Source: Roseivivax isoporae LMG 25204 | GTDB lineage: Bacteria; Pseudomonadota; Alphaproteobacteria; Rhodobacterales; Rhodobacteraceae | Assembly: GCF_000521865.1 (NCBI RefSeq) | Contig: NZ_JAME01000006.1 | Coordinates: 1-64,000 of the forward strand | Reading direction: 5' to 3' | Length of the DNA: 64,000 nucleotides | Part shown: one piece after another, positions 18,776 to 45,376 of the stretch | Numbering within the stretch: position 1 is the first letter of the stretch | How the letters are laid out: every line of letters begins with the position of its first letter | Translations under genes and position numbers: made by a program | The notes under the pieces: model-generated | What the model was told of the DNA's origin: nothing | Database searches by the model: none | The model's input: only the letters and a program-made list of their open reading frames with translations

Positions 18776-18869
18776 GAGAGGTTGGTGCGGGCAAGCGCCT
18801 CGCCAACCCGGTCAGGTCCGGAAGGAAGCAGCCGTAACGAGACCCGCTTGGGTCGCTCTCCAGCCTCTC
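18776..18869 (+). ncRNA. ffs: Small signal recognition particle RNA (4.5S, ffs)
   Basis: The invariant domain IV segment GGTCAGGTCCGGAAGGAAGC followed by AGCCGTAACGAG lies at about 18810-18841, and the ends pair (GAGAGGTTGG at 18776 with CCAGCCTCTC at 18860, one G-U). This is the Ffh-binding RNA of the signal recognition particle that targets membrane proteins. Exact ends are set from the closing stem and may be a few bases off. It lies between the nucleotidase gene and the phosphatase gene. Confidence 0.93.
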
Positions 18870-18890
18870 ACCCTTCCCCGCATCGCCGCG

Positions 18891-38235: not shown

Positions 38236-38433
38236 ATGTTGATCACGTCCGTCGCCATCCTCATCGCCGTCGTGTCGGCCGCGCTCGCCGTCCTCTCCAT
38301 GCGGGAGGTCGCCAGCGGGACCGCGCTCCTGATGCGGTCGGGCGTGCGGCGGACGCTGCGGTCGGGACGGCTGGCGCCCACGATCGCGTTCGTCTGCCTG
38401 TGGCTGATGATCTTCGGCCTGAGCTTCGCGTGA
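38236..38433 (+). CDS. Small two-helix membrane protein (65 aa)
   Basis: MLITSVAILIAVVSAALAVL begins a first membrane helix, then a basic loop (REVASGTALLMRSGVRRTLRS), then a second helix (about 49-64, TIAFVCLWLMIFGLSF). No family recognised. It ends just before AGGAGG and the first XpaC-like gene, so it is probably the first gene of the stress cluster. Confidence 0.7.
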   Translation: MLITSVAILIAVVSAALAVLSMREVASGTALLMRSGVRRTLRSGRLAPTIAFVCLWLMIFGLSFA

Positions 38434-38443
38434 GGAGGTGACC

Positions 38444-39268
38444 GTGACCCACATCCCGTCGATCCCGCGGCCGTCCGAACGCACCCTGGCCGACGCGCTG
38501 CCGCTGCTGCTGCTGTCGGCGTGCCCCCTCCTCTTCTGGCTGCTCGACGGCTCGCTCCTGATGATGCTGGGCGCGGTGTTCCACTTCGCGCTGCTCGTGG
38601 GCGGCGCGCTCCTGATCGGGGCGGGCCACCGGCGCGCGCAGGGCTACGACGCGGCCGAGGCCGCCGCGCGCCCGCGCGTCCCCCGCAAGCTGCTCGGCTC
38701 CGCGCTCCTCGGGCTTCTCGTCTTCCTGCTGGCCGCGGCGCAGTTCACGGTCTGGCTGCCGCCGGTGGCGCTGGGCCTCGCGGGCTTCGGCTTCGCGGTC
38801 GCGGCCTTTGGCGCGGACCCGTTGCGCGACAAGGGGCTCGACGATCCGACCTATCTCGGCCGCAAGGCCGCCGAGGCCCTGCTGACGGAAACCGACGGCG
38901 CGCTGCGCGACATCGTCGACCGGGTTGCGGGGCTGGGCGATCCGAACCTCGCGCTCCGGACCGAGGCGATGCACGGCGCGATCCTGCGGCTCCTGCGGGC
39001 GTTCTCGGCCGATCCGGGCCAGCTCCTCGACCTCGAGCGGCCGCTCGACAAGTTCCTGCGCCTCGCCTCGGCCGAGGTCGGCAGGCTGGAGCACGGCTGG
39101 CGGCACGACCGCGCCACCGCGGCGCAAAGCTACGCGACGCGGCTCGCGGCGCTGACGGCGGCCTTCGAGACCGGCGCGCGCCAGCGGCGCCAGCGGGCGA
39201 CGCCGGACACCTACGCGCTCGACGCCGACCTGCTGCTGCAGCGCATGGGCGGGCACGCGGCCGCCTGA
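38444..39268 (+). CDS. XpaC-like protein with four membrane helices
   Basis: 274 residues. A GTG at 38444 is preferred because AGGAGG lies 5 bases before it; a GTG at 38438 touches the ribosome-binding site. Four hydrophobic segments (about 15-35, 40-60, 82-100, 104-123) precede a helical cytoplasmic domain that starts FGADPLRDKGLDD. This FGxDPxRxKGL boundary is shared with the second XpaC-like protein downstream, so the two appear to be diverged paralogues. XpaC (5-bromo-4-chloroindolyl phosphate hydrolysis family) has no established role. Confidence 0.7.
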   Translation: MTHIPSIPRPSERTLADALPLLLLSACPLLFWLLDGSLLMMLGAVFHFALLVGGALLIGAGHRRAQGYDAAEAAARPRVPRKLLGSALLGLLVFLLAAAQFTVWLPPVALGLAGFGFAVAAFGADPLRDKGLDDPTYLGRKAAEALLTETDGALRDIVDRVAGLGDPNLALRTEAMHGAILRLLRAFSADPGQLLDLERPLDKFLRLASAEVGRLEHGWRHDRATAAQSYATRLAALTAAFETGARQRRQRATPDTYALDADLLLQRMGGHAAA

Positions 39269-39363
39269 CGCACCGCCGGCGATGCTGCATCCGCGGCAAT
39301 CGCACTGGTAACACCCGGACCTTTCGCCTAGATTTGGAGCGAACCTAGGACGACGGGGGCGTC

Positions 39364-39453
39364 ATGTCGGCCACCGGCCTGCAGAAACTCGCATTTGTGC
39401 TGCTCATCCTGCTGCAACTCGGCGTGGCGACCGGCCTCCTGGGCGGGTTCTGA
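39364..39453 (+). CDS. 29-aa single-helix membrane protein
   Basis: Sequence begins MSATGLQKLAFVLLILLQLG and consists of one membrane helix with almost no soluble part. GGGGGCGTC lies ahead of the ATG. Its stop is 3 bases before the XpaC gene start. The tight spacing and hydrophobic content suggest a real small subunit. Family unknown. Confidence 0.6.
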   Translation: MSATGLQKLAFVLLILLQLGVATGLLGGF

Positions 39454-39456
39454 GCC

Positions 39457-40359
39457 ATGGCGGAACGGTTCGGCGGCAAATACAGCCCCGGTGCGTCCCG
39501 TCCTGCCGGCGCGCCGCGCAAGGACCCGCCCGCCTATGCGGGGGCCCGCGTCAACCCTGTCGGCGCGCGCGCGAACGTCATGTTCGTGCCCCCGGTGGTG
39601 CTGGCCTTCCTGTCGCTCGGCGCCGGGGCCGCGGGCCTCGCGCTCGGGCTCGCCGGCGCGGGCGCGCTCGTGCTCGGCGCATGGCTGCTGCGCGACGGGC
39701 TCAAGGCCGAGGCGGCGTTCCACGCGCGCAAGGTCGCGAACCGGCCCGCCCTGCCGCGCAAGACCTTCGCCGCGATCCTGTCGGGCGTCGGCACCGGCTT
39801 CGCGGTCCTGTCCGGCGACGGCGGGGTGACCACCGCCGCGCTCTACGGGATGATCGCGGGCGGGCTGCACCTCGCGGCCTTCGGGATCGACCCGATGCGG
39901 GGCAAGGGGCTCGAGGGGGTCGATCAGTTCCAGCAGGACCGCGTCGCGCGGGTCGTGGACGAGGCAGAGACCTATCTCGCGGACATGGACGCGGCGGCGC
40001 GCCGGGCGGGCGACCGCGAGGTGATGGCGCGGGTCGAACGCTTCGTCACCACCGCGCGCGGCCTCATCCGCACGGTCGAGGAGGATCCGCGCGACCTGAC
40101 GGCCGCGCGCAAGTATCTGGGCGTCTACCTGATGGGCGCCCGCGACGCGGCGGTGAAGTTCGCCGACATCTTCGCCCGGTCCCGCGATGCCGGGGCGAAG
40201 GACGATTTTCTGGCGCTGCTCGGCGATCTCGAGGAGAGTTTCGGCACCAAGACGCGGGCGCTGCTTCTCGACACGAACAGCGACCTGCAGGTCGAGATCG
40301 ACGTGCTGCGCGACCGGCTGAAGCGCGAAGGCGTGCGGCCGGGCGCCGACGCGTCCTAA
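39457..40359 (+). CDS. xpaC: XpaC-family protein (5-bromo-4-chloroindolyl phosphate hydrolysis type)
   Basis: 300 residues. Basic Pro-rich N-terminus, then two to four membrane segments (about 42-77 and 102-137), FGIDPMRGKGLEG, then a long helical cytoplasmic domain (about 160-300). In Bacillus subtilis xpaC is co-transcribed with a TelA homologue (yaaN); here telA follows after 25 bases. The enzymatic name comes from an old plate assay and is not evidence of function. Confidence 0.82.
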   Translation: MAERFGGKYSPGASRPAGAPRKDPPAYAGARVNPVGARANVMFVPPVVLAFLSLGAGAAGLALGLAGAGALVLGAWLLRDGLKAEAAFHARKVANRPALPRKTFAAILSGVGTGFAVLSGDGGVTTAALYGMIAGGLHLAAFGIDPMRGKGLEGVDQFQQDRVARVVDEAETYLADMDAAARRAGDREVMARVERFVTTARGLIRTVEEDPRDLTAARKYLGVYLMGARDAAVKFADIFARSRDAGAKDDFLALLGDLEESFGTKTRALLLDTNSDLQVEIDVLRDRLKREGVRPGADAS

Positions 40360-40384
40360 CGTGGTCTGAAGGGGATGACGACGA

Positions 40385-41587
40385 ATGTCTGATGCAGTCC
40401 GGGCCAAGGCCCAGGAAACCGCCGCGCTGGTCGAGGACGTGAACGGCGCCGCCCTCCCTGAACCCTCGGCGGCCGACGCCATCGTCGGGCTCGACGGCGC
40501 CGATCCGCGCCAGAGCGAGGAGATCCGGTCGCGCATGGACGAGATCGATATCGGCGACACCAACTCGATTGTCTCCTTCGGGTCGGCGGCACAGGCCGAG
40601 CTGCAGGAGATCAGCCAGTCGATGCTGACCGGCGTGCGCAACAAGGACGTGGGCCCGGCCGGCGACAGCCTGCGCGGGATCGTCGCCACGATCCGCGGAT
40701 TCTCGGTCTCGGAACTGGACACGCGGCGGGACCGTTCCTGGTGGGAGCGGCTGATGGGGCGCGCGACGCCCTTCGCCAAGTTCACCGCGCGTTACGAGGA
40801 GGTCCAGGGCCAGATCGACCGGATCACCGATGACCTCCTCAAACACGAGCATGCACTGCTGAAGGACATCAAGTCGCTGGACCTGCTCTACGAGAAGACG
40901 CTGCAATTCTACGACGAGCTGGCGCTCTACATCGCGGCCGGCGAGGCGAAGCTTGCAGAGATCGACGGGACCGAGATCCCCGCCAAGGAGGCGGAGGTGC
41001 AGGCGGCGGTCGAGGCCGACCAGGTGATGAAGGCGCAGGAACTGCGCGACCTGCGCGCGGCCCGCGACGACCTCGAACGCCGGGTGCACGACCTGCGGCT
41101 GACGCGACAGGTCACCATGCAGTCTCTGCCCTCGATCCGGCTCGTGCAGGAAAACGACAAGTCGCTGGTGACCAAGATCAACTCGACGCTCGTGAATACC
41201 GTGCCGCTGTGGGAGACGCAGCTGGCGCAGGCCGTCACCATCCAGCGGTCCAAGGAGGCGGCCGCCGCCGTCCGGGACGCCAACGACCTGACCAACGAGC
41301 TGCTGACCGCGAACGCCTCGAACCTGCGCGATGCCAACCGCACCGTCCGGCAGGAGATGGAGCGCGGCGTCTTCGACATCGAGGCGGTGAAGAAGGCCAA
41401 TGCCGACCTGATCGGCACCATCCAGGAAAGCCTGCAGATCGCCGACGAGGGCAAGGCACGCCGCGCGGCCGCCGAGGAGGATCTGCGCCGCATGGAAACC
41501 GAACTGCGCGACACGCTCTCCGCGGCACGCGCGCGCCGCGACGGATCGGGCGACACGTCCGGCACCGCCGTGCCCGCAGGACACTGA
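40385..41587 (+). CDS. telA: TelA-family toxic-anion resistance protein
   Basis: 400 residues. Almost wholly helical with long coiled coils (about 90-200 and 290-380) and the conserved TelA blocks RRDRSWWERLMGRATPF, LDLLYEKTLQFYDELALYI and RLVQENDKSLVTKINSTLVNTVPLW. TelA homologues are linked to tellurite and other toxic stress, and to the cell envelope, but their molecular action is unknown. Pairs with XpaC. Confidence 0.92.
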   Translation: MSDAVRAKAQETAALVEDVNGAALPEPSAADAIVGLDGADPRQSEEIRSRMDEIDIGDTNSIVSFGSAAQAELQEISQSMLTGVRNKDVGPAGDSLRGIVATIRGFSVSELDTRRDRSWWERLMGRATPFAKFTARYEEVQGQIDRITDDLLKHEHALLKDIKSLDLLYEKTLQFYDELALYIAAGEAKLAEIDGTEIPAKEAEVQAAVEADQVMKAQELRDLRAARDDLERRVHDLRLTRQVTMQSLPSIRLVQENDKSLVTKINSTLVNTVPLWETQLAQAVTIQRSKEAAAAVRDANDLTNELLTANASNLRDANRTVRQEMERGVFDIEAVKKANADLIGTIQESLQIADEGKARRAAAEEDLRRMETELRDTLSAARARRDGSGDTSGTAVPAGH

Positions 41588-41595
41588 GAGGCGCA

Positions 41596-42597
41596 ATGCA
41601 CCGACCGAGCAGGTTCCAGGCTTTCGGCGCCGCGATGGCGTTCGCGGCGCTTGCCGCCTGCGACTTCGGCCCGAGCGAGGGGCTCGACACGTCGAGCAAG
41701 CCGCAGGTGCGGCCCGACCGCCCCGCGGCGACACCCGACACGCGCCCTCCCACGACGCGGGAGCCGTCGGCGCGCAGCCGCGACCTTGCCACCTACTACG
41801 CGCGTCTCGAGGCGGATCTCGTGGGCCAGGGCCTCTTGCGCACCGACGGCGGCGGCGTCGACACGCCCTTCACCGAGACGCAGCTTGTCCGCAACTTCGA
41901 ACGCATCGCGCTTGCGGAGGAATACGAGCGCGGCGCGGGCTTCCGTCCGTCCTCGGGCGGGCTCGGCCGGATCAAGAAATGGACGCAGCCCGTCCGCGTG
42001 CAGGCCGAGTTCGGCCCGTCGGTGGACCGCGACCAGCGCGCGCGCGAAAGCGGGACGCTGTCGCGCTATGTCGACCGGCTGGCGCGGGTGACAAGCCACC
42101 CGATCACCATGTCGTCGAGCAACCCGAACTTCCACGTGCTGTTCATGGGCGAGGACGACCGCGGGCAAATCGCCCCGCGGGTGCGCTCGATCGTGCCGGG
42201 CATCGACAGCGCCTCGCTGGCCGCGCTCACCTCGCTGCCGCGCGAGATCCACTGCCTCGTGGTCGCGTTCTCGGACCAGCCGGGCGGCTACGCCTACGGC
42301 CAGGCCATCGCGCTGATCCGCGCCGAACATCCCGACCTCCTGATGAAGTCCTGCATCCACGAGGAGCTGGCGCAGGGCCTCGGGCTCGCCAACGACAGCC
42401 CCGGCGCGCGGCCGTCGATCTTCAACGACGACGACGAGTTCGCGCTCCTGACCACGCATGACGAGATGCTGCTCAAGATGCTGTACGACCCGCGGCTGCG
42501 CCCCGGCATGACGCCCGACGAGGCGCGGCCGGTGGTGCAGCGCGTCGCGCTGGAACTGGCCGGCGGCGACAGGCTCGCCAGCATCGACGCCGAGTGA
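41596..42597 (+). CDS. DUF2927 lipoprotein
   Basis: 333 residues. Signal peptide with lipobox LAAC (Cys22), so probably anchored to a membrane facing the periplasm. After a Pro/Thr-rich linker comes the DUF2927 domain, including SHPITMSSSNPNFHVLFMGEDD and CIHEELAQGLGLANDS (about 250-265), a HEE-x2-Q pattern that could bind metal. Role unknown. Eight bases after telA, so part of the same operon. Confidence 0.85.
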   Translation: MHRPSRFQAFGAAMAFAALAACDFGPSEGLDTSSKPQVRPDRPAATPDTRPPTTREPSARSRDLATYYARLEADLVGQGLLRTDGGGVDTPFTETQLVRNFERIALAEEYERGAGFRPSSGGLGRIKKWTQPVRVQAEFGPSVDRDQRARESGTLSRYVDRLARVTSHPITMSSSNPNFHVLFMGEDDRGQIAPRVRSIVPGIDSASLAALTSLPREIHCLVVAFSDQPGGYAYGQAIALIRAEHPDLLMKSCIHEELAQGLGLANDSPGARPSIFNDDDEFALLTTHDEMLLKMLYDPRLRPGMTPDEARPVVQRVALELAGGDRLASIDAE

Positions 42598-42622
42598 CGA
42601 AACGCAACCAAGGGGACTACGG

Positions 42623-43744
42623 ATGGGCATCCTCGACTTCCTGAGCGGCCAGTTCATCGACGTCATCCACTGGACGGACGACACCCGCGACACCATGGTC
42701 TGGCGCTTCGAGCGCGAGGGACACGAGATCAAGTACGGGGCGAAGCTCACCGTGCGGGAAGGCCAGGCGGCGGTCTTCGTGCACGAGGGGCAGCTCGCGG
42801 ACGTGTTCACACCCGGGCTCTACATGCTCGAGACCAACAACATGCCGATCATGACCACGCTGCAGCACTGGGACCACGGGTTCCGGTCGCCGTTCAAGTC
42901 CGAGGTCTACTTCGTCTCGACCGCCCGCTTCACCGACCTGAAATGGGGCACCAAGAACCCGATCATCGCGCGCGATCCGGAATTCGGGCCCGTGCGGCTG
43001 CGCGCCTTCGGCACCTACAGCGTCAAGGTCACCGATCCCGGCCTCTTCCTGACCGAGATCGTCGGCACCGACGGCGAATTCACCATGGCCGAGATCGGGT
43101 TCCAGATCCGCAACATCATCGTGCAGGAGGTCGGGCGCGTGCTGGCCTCCTCCGGTATCCCGGTGCTCGATATGGCGGCGAACACCGCCGATCTCGGCCG
43201 GCTCGTGGCCGGCGAGGTGTCGAAGACCCTCGCCACCTACGGGCTGGTGATGCCCGAGCTCTACATCGAGAACATCTCGCTGCCGCCCGCGGTGGAAAAG
43301 GCGCTCGACGCGCGGACCTCGCGCGGGATCGCCGGCAATCTCGACGAGCACATGAAATGGCGCGCGGCCGAGGCTTTTGCCGATGGCGGCAGCGCCGCGG
43401 GCGGCGCCATGGGCATGGGCTTCGGCGCGGGGCTCGGCATGCAGATGGCGGGCCAGGCGGGCCGCGCGGGTCCCTGGGGCGCCGCGTCTGTCGCCGCGGG
43501 CGCCGCCACGCCGCCCCCGCCGCCGGTCGAACATGTCTGGCACATCGCGGAGAACGGCCAGACGCAGGGCCCGTTCTCGAAGGCGCGCATGGGCCGGATG
43601 GCCGCCGAGGGTGCGCTCACCCGCGACACGCTCGTGTGGACCGCCGGGCAGGACGGCTGGATGAAGGCCGGCGACGTGACCGAGCTGGCGCAGCTCTTCA
43701 CCGTCATGCCCCCGCCGCCGCCGCCCCCGCCGCCCGCGGGCTGA
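42623..43744 (+). CDS. SPFH-domain protein with C-terminal GYF_2 domain (YdjI-like)
   Basis: 373 residues. N-terminus FIDVIHWTDDTRDTMVWRF and an SPFH/band-7 core (about 35-245) match the YdjI/virion-core group, soluble SPFH proteins that act at membranes. After a Gly/Ala/Met linker comes a GYF_2 (DUF4339) domain (about 307-362: WHIAENGQTQGPF ... GQDGWMKAGDV), a proline-peptide-binding fold. The protein ends in a run of nine prolines, possibly a partner motif. In Bacillus the YdjI gene lies with pspA and a zinc-ribbon gene. Confidence 0.87.
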   Translation: MGILDFLSGQFIDVIHWTDDTRDTMVWRFEREGHEIKYGAKLTVREGQAAVFVHEGQLADVFTPGLYMLETNNMPIMTTLQHWDHGFRSPFKSEVYFVSTARFTDLKWGTKNPIIARDPEFGPVRLRAFGTYSVKVTDPGLFLTEIVGTDGEFTMAEIGFQIRNIIVQEVGRVLASSGIPVLDMAANTADLGRLVAGEVSKTLATYGLVMPELYIENISLPPAVEKALDARTSRGIAGNLDEHMKWRAAEAFADGGSAAGGAMGMGFGAGLGMQMAGQAGRAGPWGAASVAAGAATPPPPPVEHVWHIAENGQTQGPFSKARMGRMAAEGALTRDTLVWTAGQDGWMKAGDVTELAQLFTVMPPPPPPPPPAG

Positions 43745-43751
43745 ACCGGCT

Positions 43752-44123
43752 TCAGGAGCTGACGGCCGCCGCACGCAGCGCCGCGAGGCGCGCGTGCAGC
43801 TCGCGCGTGCGGGCGCCGAACGTGCCCGCTGCCATCGCCTCGAGCGCGCGGCGGCGCTCGCCCCGGGCGATGAGCCCCGCGATGCGGTCCGCCTCGCGCG
43901 CATAGGAGGCGCCGAGCGGACCGAGAAGCGGCGCCACCGGGTCCGTCCGCGTATCCGCGCGCAGCGCCTCCGCAAGGGCGGCGAGCCGTCGCGCGGTCTC
44001 TGCCCCGAGGCCCGGATCGGCACAGGTGCCGTCCCCGATCGCCGCCGCGCGCAGCGCCTGCGCGCACGCACCCTCGGCGTCGAGCGCGCGGGCGATCAGT
44101 GCCTGCAGGTCGTGCCCTTTCAT
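43752..44123 (-). CDS. Helical hypothetical protein (123 aa), opposite strand
   Basis: Begins MKGHDLQALIARALDAEG. Nearly all helix, with four predicted amphipathic helices and no membrane segment. It interrupts the plus-strand cluster. The coding pattern is good and the alternative plus-strand frame has poor amino-acid use (Arg/Ala/Pro shadow), so the minus-strand gene is preferred. Family not recognised; the four-helix pattern loosely resembles sensor bundles. Confidence 0.6.
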   Translation of the reverse strand: MKGHDLQALIARALDAEGACAQALRAAAIGDGTCADPGLGAETARRLAALAEALRADTRTDPVAPLLGPLGASYAREADRIAGLIARGERRRALEAMAAGTFGARTRELHARLAALRAAAVSS

Positions 44124-44242
44124 CCGCGGCCCCCCGCCTCATCCCGGCCGCCCGAGGCTATGCGCTGCCCGGGGTGAAGATGGCGTAAAGCGGCGGCACG
44201 ATTCCGTCTTGAGTCCCCCCGCGCGCCGCCTAGGCTGCGCCC

Positions 44243-45376
44243 ATGACAGCCACGCCCCCACCACCGCCCCCGCCGCCCGGCGCAGACGGAAGCCCCGTCG
44301 AGGAACACCGCTTTCCCTGCGATCAGTGCGGCGCCGACCTGCGCTACGATCCCGCCGCCGCGGAGCTGCGCTGCGCCCATTGCGGCCATGCCGAGGCCGT
44401 GGCGCCGCGCGGGCCGTGGGAAGGGGGACTGCGCGAGCTCGATTTCCGCGCGGCGCTCGACAACCTGCTGCCGCTGCAGGACATGGAGATCACGCGCGTC
44501 TCGTCCTGCCCGAATTGCGGGGCGCAGGTGGAATTCGATCCCGCGAGCCATGCCGCGGAATGTCCGTTCTGCGCCACGCCGGTCGTGACCGACACGGGCG
44601 AGAACCGCCATATCAAGCCGCGCGGCCTCCTGCCCTTCGCCATCGGCGAGGAGGAGGCGCGGCAGGCCGTGTCGACCTGGCTCGGCACGCTCTGGTTCGC
44701 GCCGAACGGGCTCAAGGACTATGCCCGCAAGGGGCGGCGGATGCAGGGCATCTACGTGCCCTACTGGACGTTCGACGCCGACACGGCCTCGCGCTACACG
44801 GGGCAGCGCGGGACGGTCTACTACGAGACGCGCACGGTGGTCCGGGACGGCAAGCCGCAGACGATCCAGGTCCAGAAGGTGCGCTGGACGCCGGTCTCGG
44901 GGCGCGTGGCGCGGTTCTTCGACGACGTGCTGGTGCTCGCCTCGCAATCGCTGCCGAAGACCTACACCGACGCCCTGCCCCCGTGGGACCTGACGCGGCT
45001 CGAACCCTACCGGCCGGAATACGTCGCGGGGTTCCGCGCCGAGGCCTACACGGTGGAGCTCGACGCGGGCTTCGCCGAGGCGCGCGCGGTCATGGACCGC
45101 CAGATCGAGCGCGACGTGAAGTTCGACATCGGCGGGGACCGCCAGCGGGTCGGCCGCGTCGACACCGACGTGCGCGACGTGACCTTCAAGCACGTGCTGC
45201 TGCCGGTCTGGCTCGCCGCCTACAAGTTCCGCGGCGAGACCTACCGCATCGTGCTGAACGGGCAGACCGGCCGCGTCCAGGGCGAGCGGCCGTGGTCGGC
45301 GTGGAAGATCGCGCTCGCCGTTTTGGCCGGCCTCGTGGTGGCCGCCATCGTGGGCTACGTCGCCGCGCGGTCCTGA
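44243..45376 (+). CDS. Zinc-ribbon protein with C-terminal membrane anchor
   Basis: 377 residues. A run of eight prolines near the N-terminus, then two zinc ribbons with eight Cys (26/29, 44/47, 89/92, 107/110), a beta-rich domain (about 140-340; KGRRMQGIYVPYWTFDADT, TYRIVLNGQTGRVQG) and a single C-terminal membrane helix (about 352-374). The arrangement resembles Bacillus YdjG-type proteins found beside SPFH and PspA genes. It probably works with the SPFH-GYF protein; GYF domains bind proline-rich segments such as its N-terminus. Confidence 0.82.
   Translation: MTATPPPPPPPPGADGSPVEEHRFPCDQCGADLRYDPAAAELRCAHCGHAEAVAPRGPWEGGLRELDFRAALDNLLPLQDMEITRVSSCPNCGAQVEFDPASHAAECPFCATPVVTDTGENRHIKPRGLLPFAIGEEEARQAVSTWLGTLWFAPNGLKDYARKGRRMQGIYVPYWTFDADTASRYTGQRGTVYYETRTVVRDGKPQTIQVQKVRWTPVSGRVARFFDDVLVLASQSLPKTYTDALPPWDLTRLEPYRPEYVAGFRAEAYTVELDAGFAEARAVMDRQIERDVKFDIGGDRQRVGRVDTDVRDVTFKHVLLPVWLAAYKFRGETYRIVLNGQTGRVQGERPWSAWKIALAVLAGLVVAAIVGYVAARS

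Follow-up and report, generated by a model that had tools for sequence, protein, structure and literature searches.

A row of genes in a 64,000-nucleotide stretch of the Roseivivax isoporae LMG 25204 genome (contig NZ_JAME01000006.1; the whole stretch is referred to here as the window) encodes the membrane protein XpaC, TelA, an SPFH protein with a GYF domain and a zinc-ribbon protein (ZnR). Comparison of this row across Rhodobacterales showed that the genes for XpaC, TelA, SPFH and ZnR behave as if they were a single unit, inherited and lost together in these bacteria. We propose that these four proteins, together with a tiny membrane protein encoded directly 5' of XpaC, form one inner-membrane maintenance module, and we put the probability of this reading at about 0.55. 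The four core genes are all on the plus strand: XpaC at 39,457–40,359 (PF10112, 78 bits), TelA at 40,385–41,587 (PF05816, 359.5 bits; helical, without a predicted membrane segment), the YdjI-like SPFH-GYF protein at 42,623–43,744 (PF13421, Band_7_1, 327.5 bits; GYF_2, 75.7 bits; proline-rich C-terminus) and the YdjG-like ZnR at 44,243–45,376, which has a C-terminal membrane helix (residues 356–374) and matches zinc-ribbon Pfam models below cut-off only. Between TelA and SPFH is the gene for a DUF2927 lipoprotein.

Two samples of genomes were analyzed, an order-level sample of 121 Rhodobacterales genomes and a class-level sample of 115 genomes. Loci with wide flanks were retrieved from 60 of the 118 order genomes that have a full-length TelA, and 80 further loci came from named relatives (Roseivivax, Salipiger, Roseovarius, Ruegeria, Sulfitobacter and others). 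Exclusion of loci shorter than 5 kb removed one named locus (L078) and reduced the set from 140 to 139 (L166 was exempt from this rule yet uncounted), and 30 short loci of ~4 kb (L001–L030) were left uncounted. A stricter set of 123 loci was obtained from the 139 by requiring at least 6 kb of sequence both upstream and downstream of TelA. As the wide-flank and named-relative sets partly overlap (L043/L112 and L067/L107, for example, appear to come from one genome each), the locus counts are not all independent.

The order XpaC-TelA-DUF2927-SPFH-ZnR, on the same strand, was found at 112 of the 123 loci of this stricter set. Conservation of the neighbourhood across Rhodobacterales had been suggested as a check by an earlier interpretation of the window made from its letters alone (the sequence-only reading), and the check came out in its favour. 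Taken singly, XpaC was present at 121 of these loci, DUF2927 at 120, SPFH at 121 and ZnR at 116. The genes flanking the row were less constant than the core, with the RluB gene found at 105 loci and the sugar kinase gene at 58, but as both sit farther from TelA than the core genes do, they are a rough and imperfect internal control. The row was incomplete, on that strand and within the stretch retrieved, at 11 loci: ZnR alone was missing from five, DUF2927 alone from two and XpaC alone from two, while L068 was without SPFH and ZnR, and L211 without DUF2927, SPFH and ZnR. In the larger set of 139 loci, and on the same strand as TelA, XpaC was upstream at 137, and DUF2927, SPFH and ZnR were downstream at 135, 136 and 122, respectively. 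A plasmid version of the row is present in Paracoccus ferrooxidans, where a 1.46 Mb plasmid record (pFER4, L218) carries TelA-DUF2927-SPFH-ZnR with no annotated XpaC beside them.

In the order-level sample, full-length TelA was identified in 118 of the 121 genomes, XpaC in 118 and SPFH (PF13421, exceeding cut-off) in 117; some TelA match was present in 119, since one genome, G085, has a short and divergent one only. XpaC was absent from exactly three genomes, G011, G085 and G106, which belong to three genera. The same three were without full-length TelA and without SPFH over the cut-off, and ZnR was looked for in them and not found. The co-occurrence of XpaC and SPFH was far from random (Fisher P 1.4e-5, with genomes treated as independent). 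In G106 the site reads RluB-DUF2927-Hsp20 (minus strand)-kinase, and comparison with the full row of its congener G099 indicates that genes were lost on both sides of DUF2927, which was kept. In G011 only the upstream side was readable locally, because DUF2927 is close to the contig end. A search of G085 did not find XpaC, SPFH, ZnR or DUF2927. Its locus (L197, 2160–3062) encodes, after RluB, a short diverged TelA-like protein of 301 residues (PF05816, 70.5 bits), which is perhaps a relic. Joint retention was also observed without linkage: XpaC and TelA are at separate places in the six genomes of one genus (g7), all of which nevertheless keep XpaC, TelA and SPFH.

A fourth genome without SPFH, G081, retains XpaC, TelA and DUF2927; no ZnR was found at its locus, the only part of that genome searched for this gene. 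Compared with the window, the proteins of G081 had the lowest scores of all for TelA (z -3.8, 60 loci) and for XpaC (z -2.7, 58 loci), while its RluB (z -0.2) and DUF2927 (z -0.8) were ordinary. It is the joint absence in three genomes, together with TelA and XpaC being most diverged in the SPFH-less G081, that makes the four genes look like one unit. The sequence-only reading had suggested that an xpaC-telA pair of Bacillus type is united here with a pair of ydjG/ydjI type, and the co-inheritance, the co-loss and, in one genome, the coupled rates all bear this out. Its broader proposal that the whole row is one module was strengthened by the co-loss for XpaC, TelA, SPFH and ZnR, but did not hold for the DUF2927 lipoprotein, which proved separable (see below).

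A different explanation is that two independent functions lie side by side, with XpaC-TelA serving in oxyanion or bacteriocin tolerance and SPFH-ZnR in membrane organization, in which case the shared gene order would reflect the ordinary synteny of a young order. The distribution of the two pairs outside Rhodobacterales gives this some support. In the class-level sample TelA was present in 11 genomes, XpaC in 7, DUF2927 in 16 and PspA in 19 (the first three of these numbers include G000 and G001). In line with a single module, two members of other families (G176 and G183) have XpaC-TelA-SPFH-ZnR together, with no DUF2927 beside them. On plasmids of Vibrio, Comamonas and Tsukamurella there are SPFH-ZnR pairs with no TelA annotated within 7–8 kb, and an Enterococcus plasmid carries an SPFH-ZnR-TPM trio. 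Since XpaC-TelA and SPFH-ZnR also occur apart elsewhere, the row here joins two pairs. Within Rhodobacterales, though, both pairs are jointly absent from three genomes of three genera, the flanking genes are conserved less than the module, TelA and XpaC are diverged in the SPFH-less G081, and XpaC is co-retained where unlinked. For these reasons we regard two independent functions as unlikely.

Several further observations weigh against reading the four genes as one module. Three class-level genomes (G124, G155 and G161) have XpaC and TelA with an SPFH match that is weak and below cut-off, and another (G132) has TelA, a distant unlinked SPFH and PspA, without XpaC. Plasmid records matching TelA also greatly outnumber those matching SPFH (593 versus 23), and TelA is annotated as an oxyanion resistance protein. 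The rate argument depends on a single genome, G081, and is suggestive only, because the second most diverged TelA and XpaC are those of L211 (G110), where SPFH is kept, ~13 kb from TelA. The link between ZnR and YdjG is indirect, via an Enterococcus gene. The structural prediction for TelA is poor: AlphaFold2 built the protein entirely from helices, two of them ~79 residues long, with low confidence (pLDDT 69.5, pTM 0.51). A Foldseek search with that model gave no match in the PDB at E <=0.001, and hhalign of 36 TelA sequences against 10 PspA sequences returned a probability of 0.1 (E 0.43), with a TelA profile that was shallow (Neff 1.4).

The possibility that TelA is itself a relative of PspA was rejected, there being no profile match and no convincing fold match. 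A Pfam scan of TelA at E 0.1 identified the TelA family alone and no PspA, and VIA-align of the same low-confidence model returned mixed helical bundles, with no PspA or ESCRT-III chain among the matches listed; TelA may still have the PspA/ESCRT-III fold. The mean column identity of TelA is 87% over 36 Rhodobacterales sequences.

The sequence-only reading had remarked that no PspA/IM30 gene is in the window and described the module as PspA-less. A PF04012 search extended the first statement to the entire R. isoporae genome (99.85% complete), in which there was no PspA match, with the positive control matched in 9 of 14 named genomes. The description holds for this genome but not for the module in general, as a distant PspA-family match was identified in 40 of the 121 order genomes (39 over cut-off, best 85.4 bits), so that roughly one in three genomes of the order sample has both the module and a distant relative of PspA. 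None of the 121 genomes had a PspA match of at least 100 bits, compared with 17 of the 19 matching genomes of the class sample. A one-for-one replacement of PspA by the module was considered and rejected, since the three module-less genomes are also without a PspA match. PspA over cut-off was present in 39 of 118 genomes with the module and in none of the three without it (P 0.55), which is not a reciprocal pattern. The likely role of the module is to protect the cell membrane, in bacteria most of which are without the usual PspA.

Where a PspA-family gene is present, its surroundings were viewed as lists of open reading frames (ORFs) in three order genomes, with families scanned in one of them (G003). 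In that genome, positions 7453–10815 of L174 encode a TetR regulator, the distant PspA-family protein, a YiaAB-like two-helix protein (below cut-off), an acyltransferase and a CdsA-type cytidylyltransferase, at a locus different from that of the XpaC/TelA module. A similar row of ORFs was observed in L173 (G047). From these sequences, the TetR/PspA-family/acyltransferase/cytidylyltransferase row may be a lipid-linked locus of the PspA family, present in some Rhodobacterales.

GYF domains bind proline-rich peptides, and in 125 of 140 SPFH proteins the last 25 residues contain a proline run of at least five. These runs may be the ligand of the GYF domain, which would then bind the proline-rich tail of SPFH itself. 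A proline-rich ZnR N-terminus was rejected as the partner: ZnR of the window has an eight-proline run, but the pairing is not general, because a run of at least four prolines is present in only 18 of 126 ZnR proteins (with guessed starts). By tblastn, ZnR matched the Enterococcus gene between SPFH and TPM (E 3e-26), which is in the position of YdjG. The two SPFH proteins differ at their ends, with cysteine motifs of zinc-ribbon type in Enterococcus (DZR below cut-off) and the GYF domain here.

The row resembles B. subtilis pspA-ydjGHI in that a Band_7_1 SPFH protein adjoins a zinc-ribbon membrane protein. It differs in that the R. isoporae genome has no PspA, and the row has XpaC and TelA in place of a TPM (YdjH-type) gene; the Pfam scan that found no TPM domain was confined to the proteins of the row. 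The other half of the row is like xpaC-yaaN of Bacillus, llmg_1115-telA1 of Lactococcus and lmo1966-lmo1967 of Listeria, where XpaC and TelA also form a pair; in the window the PF10112 protein is next to the PF05816 protein. Unlike those pairs, XpaC-TelA is joined here to SPFH-ZnR and has a microprotein gene 5' of it and, in the window, a second unit of a 65-residue protein and an XpaC-like protein. The resemblance to plasmid-borne tellurite resistance of the TelA/KlaA type is limited to the TelA family protein itself, with 22.9–29.3% identity among the matches listed, a range that excludes Pseudorhodobacter (73.0%) and one short piece (37.8%). In R. isoporae telA is instead embedded in an order-wide module, and few of the plasmid records that match TelA can hold SPFH.

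Studies of these counterparts bear on how the module may work. In Bacillus, YdjG and YdjH are reported to be needed for YdjI and PspA at the membrane, and YdjI for PspA foci (PMC8581546); xpaC-yaaN and pspA-ydjGHI are both placed in the sigma-W regulon (PMC3498285). Two papers describe proteins with band-7 or zinc-ribbon domains as partners of PspA (PMC11237479, PMC9239133), and SPFH/YdjI has been linked to PspA and ESCRT-III (PMC10936438). A transcriptome table for membrane-protein overproduction in Lactococcus gives values of 10.3 for the XpaC-like gene and 3.44 for telA1 (PMC3139573), a Listeria telA mutant is reported to have raised sensitivity to nisin and tellurite (PMC12791056), and the staphylococcal TelA-XpaC pair is about 2-fold up in a table of PMC3480535. 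No description of the mechanism of TelA or XpaC was found in the literature cited here. The main text of PMC11237479 does not contain the terms "TelA" and "SPFH" and uses "band-7" 14 times. No openly licensed PMC paper was found that treats TelA, XpaC, PspA and SPFH together, their absence in print being unproven, and likewise none was found for DUF2927 or for GltJ with GYF.

Based on the Bacillus, Lactococcus and Listeria literature, we infer a stress role for the module, and likewise a physical complex and recruitment of TelA to the membrane. In the proposed mechanism, an SPFH oligomer would be tethered by ZnR and XpaC to the cytoplasmic side of the inner membrane, and this SPFH scaffold would gather TelA, a long helical protein, where the membrane is damaged or stressed. 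The recruitment of TelA is modelled on Bacillus, in which PspA reaches the membrane through YdjI together with YdjG and YdjH. The microprotein and XpaC would be in the membrane alongside the SPFH-ZnR scaffold that serves TelA. A bolder version, which we put forward tentatively and with more doubt than the module itself, is that a TelA-XpaC effector on an SPFH-ZnR scaffold, helped by the 29-residue microprotein and with a zinc-less metzincin lipoprotein in the row, replaced the PspA/ESCRT-III machine in Rhodobacterales. If true, membrane maintenance guided by SPFH would have a second solution, one without ESCRT-III, across a large and widespread order. TelA and XpaC are themselves widespread, with TelA usually filed under toxic-anion resistance, and their joint inheritance and loss with the SPFH-ZnR scaffold ties them to membrane maintenance.

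The same parts might alternatively work constitutively, as a chaperone or assembly platform that serves some envelope protein or a lipid process, with an SPFH ring and a membrane part of ZnR and XpaC, rather than as a stress or repair system. A module that is near-universal and single-copy in almost every genome of the order would suit such a housekeeping role, and SPFH/band-7, TPM and CesT/Tir domains have been proposed to be chaperone-like (PMC11237479). What speaks for stress instead is that a stress factor, sigma-W, controls the Bacillus counterparts (PMC3498285), that the Lactococcus pair is up on membrane-protein overload (PMC3139573) and that the Listeria telA mutant is antimicrobial-sensitive (PMC12791056). 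A constitutive platform therefore seems to us improbable, and we continue to favor a maintenance module.

The DUF2927 lipoprotein (41,596–42,597, plus strand; PF11150, 217.7 bits) had been counted among the members of the module by the sequence-only reading, and this part of it was not upheld. G106 and G011 keep DUF2927 at this site although both are without XpaC, full-length TelA, SPFH over the cut-off and ZnR, and it is missing beside the core genes at two loci (L042 and L045) that keep all four of them. A search of G176 did not find DUF2927 at all. It is thus a constant neighbour in the operon position, separable and not required by the other four. A role for the lipoprotein as the module's periplasmic sensor is, in our estimation, the least probable of the alternatives considered here. 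Its presence in the row on the same strand at 120 of 123 loci would fit a sensor, but this pattern of retention and absence would not, nor would its ordinary divergence in G081 or the presence of a paralogue elsewhere in the R. isoporae genome.

The lipobox cysteine of the DUF2927 lipoprotein, Cys22, is invariant in all 36 aligned sequences, and the AlphaFold2 model is confident (pLDDT 86.3, pTM 0.79). MMP-13 was the first Foldseek match (E 0.02, prob 0.97), with none at 0.001. VIA-align matched the model to karilysin and matrilysin (Z 10.6, rmsd 3.0–3.2, 149–150 residues), and all 50 of the 50 rows among the matches listed were matrix metalloproteases or karilysin. The aligned sequences share a motif C-x-H-E-E-x-x-Q-G-x-G-L-x-x-D, in which E256, E257, Q260, G263 and D267 are invariant (36/36). 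The predicted fold therefore resembles that of the metzincins matrilysin and karilysin; in contrast, the metzincin motif HExxHxxGxxH is replaced by EExxQxxGLxND, with all three zinc-ligand histidines changed. Based on the model, we read the DUF2927 protein of the row as a predicted zinc-less periplasmic pseudo-metzincin. An intact HExxHxxGLxGH is present in the same columns of a distant member of the family (L188, G183:C414; 82.7 bits). The R. isoporae paralogue, on another contig (G000:C2:149542-150138), has a variant HEELAQ..ND motif.

The tiny membrane protein of the proposed module is a single-helix protein of 29 residues encoded directly 5' of XpaC (39,364–39,453, plus strand), with the consensus MSGTGLQKVAYVLLIVLLFGVTTGWLGGL. 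A hidden Markov model (HMM) of this family matched an ORF at 125 of the 139 Rhodobacterales loci, in agreement with the earlier suggestion that it belongs to the module. There were 117 family ORFs with an ATG start (window included), 100 of them 27–29 residues long, and their stops are mostly within a few nucleotides of the first in-frame XpaC start codon. The pN/pS was 0.43 (600 random pairs among 63 unique 29-residue copies). From its sequence, we consider the ORF to encode a conserved membrane microprotein, and one outcome of the analysis is that this microprotein is now named, alongside the reading of DUF2927 as a pseudo-metzincin.

The row starts with two further plus-strand genes, those of hp65 (38,236–38,433), a two-helix membrane protein of 65 residues with hydrophobic segments at 2–20 and 46–64, and XpA (38,438–39,268), a diverged XpaC paralogue with N-terminal membrane segments. 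XpA had no Pfam match, but BLASTP aligned it to XpaC with 25% identity over 138 residues (pairwise E 2e-7), and iterated HMMs of the two converged, with 177 ORFs matched by each. The second helix of hp65 resembles the microprotein, whose HMM matched 25 of 34 hp65-family ORFs compared with 47 of 1000 shuffles. Twelve hp65-family ORFs outscored the best of the 1000 shuffles, a likeness that may be inflated if the hp65 HMM captured ORFs of the 29-residue type (e.g., L150). Because hp65 resembles the microprotein and XpA resembles XpaC, the first two genes look like a duplicated small-protein-plus-XpaC unit. A second XpaC-family ORF was found at 32 of the 139 loci.

All the genes that the sequence-only reading had named on the plus strand, and the one on the minus strand between them, were present as judged by ORFs, Pfam matches and hydrophobic segments. 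The intergenic gaps along the row are 3 to 25 nucleotides, with the exceptions of 95 nucleotides before the 29-residue ORF and 498 between SPFH and ZnR. The larger gap is the site of the minus-strand ORF (43,752–44,123; 123 residues), a genuine frame without a Pfam match. This ORF was rejected as a module member, as its one match among the fetched loci, in L105, was weak (E 2e-4); it is apparently a lineage-specific insertion. A scan for promoters and terminators gave nothing exceeding chance, and a PADLOC scan gave weak matches only (best E 0.0023). The row is flanked upstream by the pseudouridine synthase gene (RluB) and downstream by the PfkB-type sugar kinase gene. Elsewhere in the window, a small signal recognition particle RNA (RF00169, 66.3 bits) was identified on the plus strand at 18,776–18,872.

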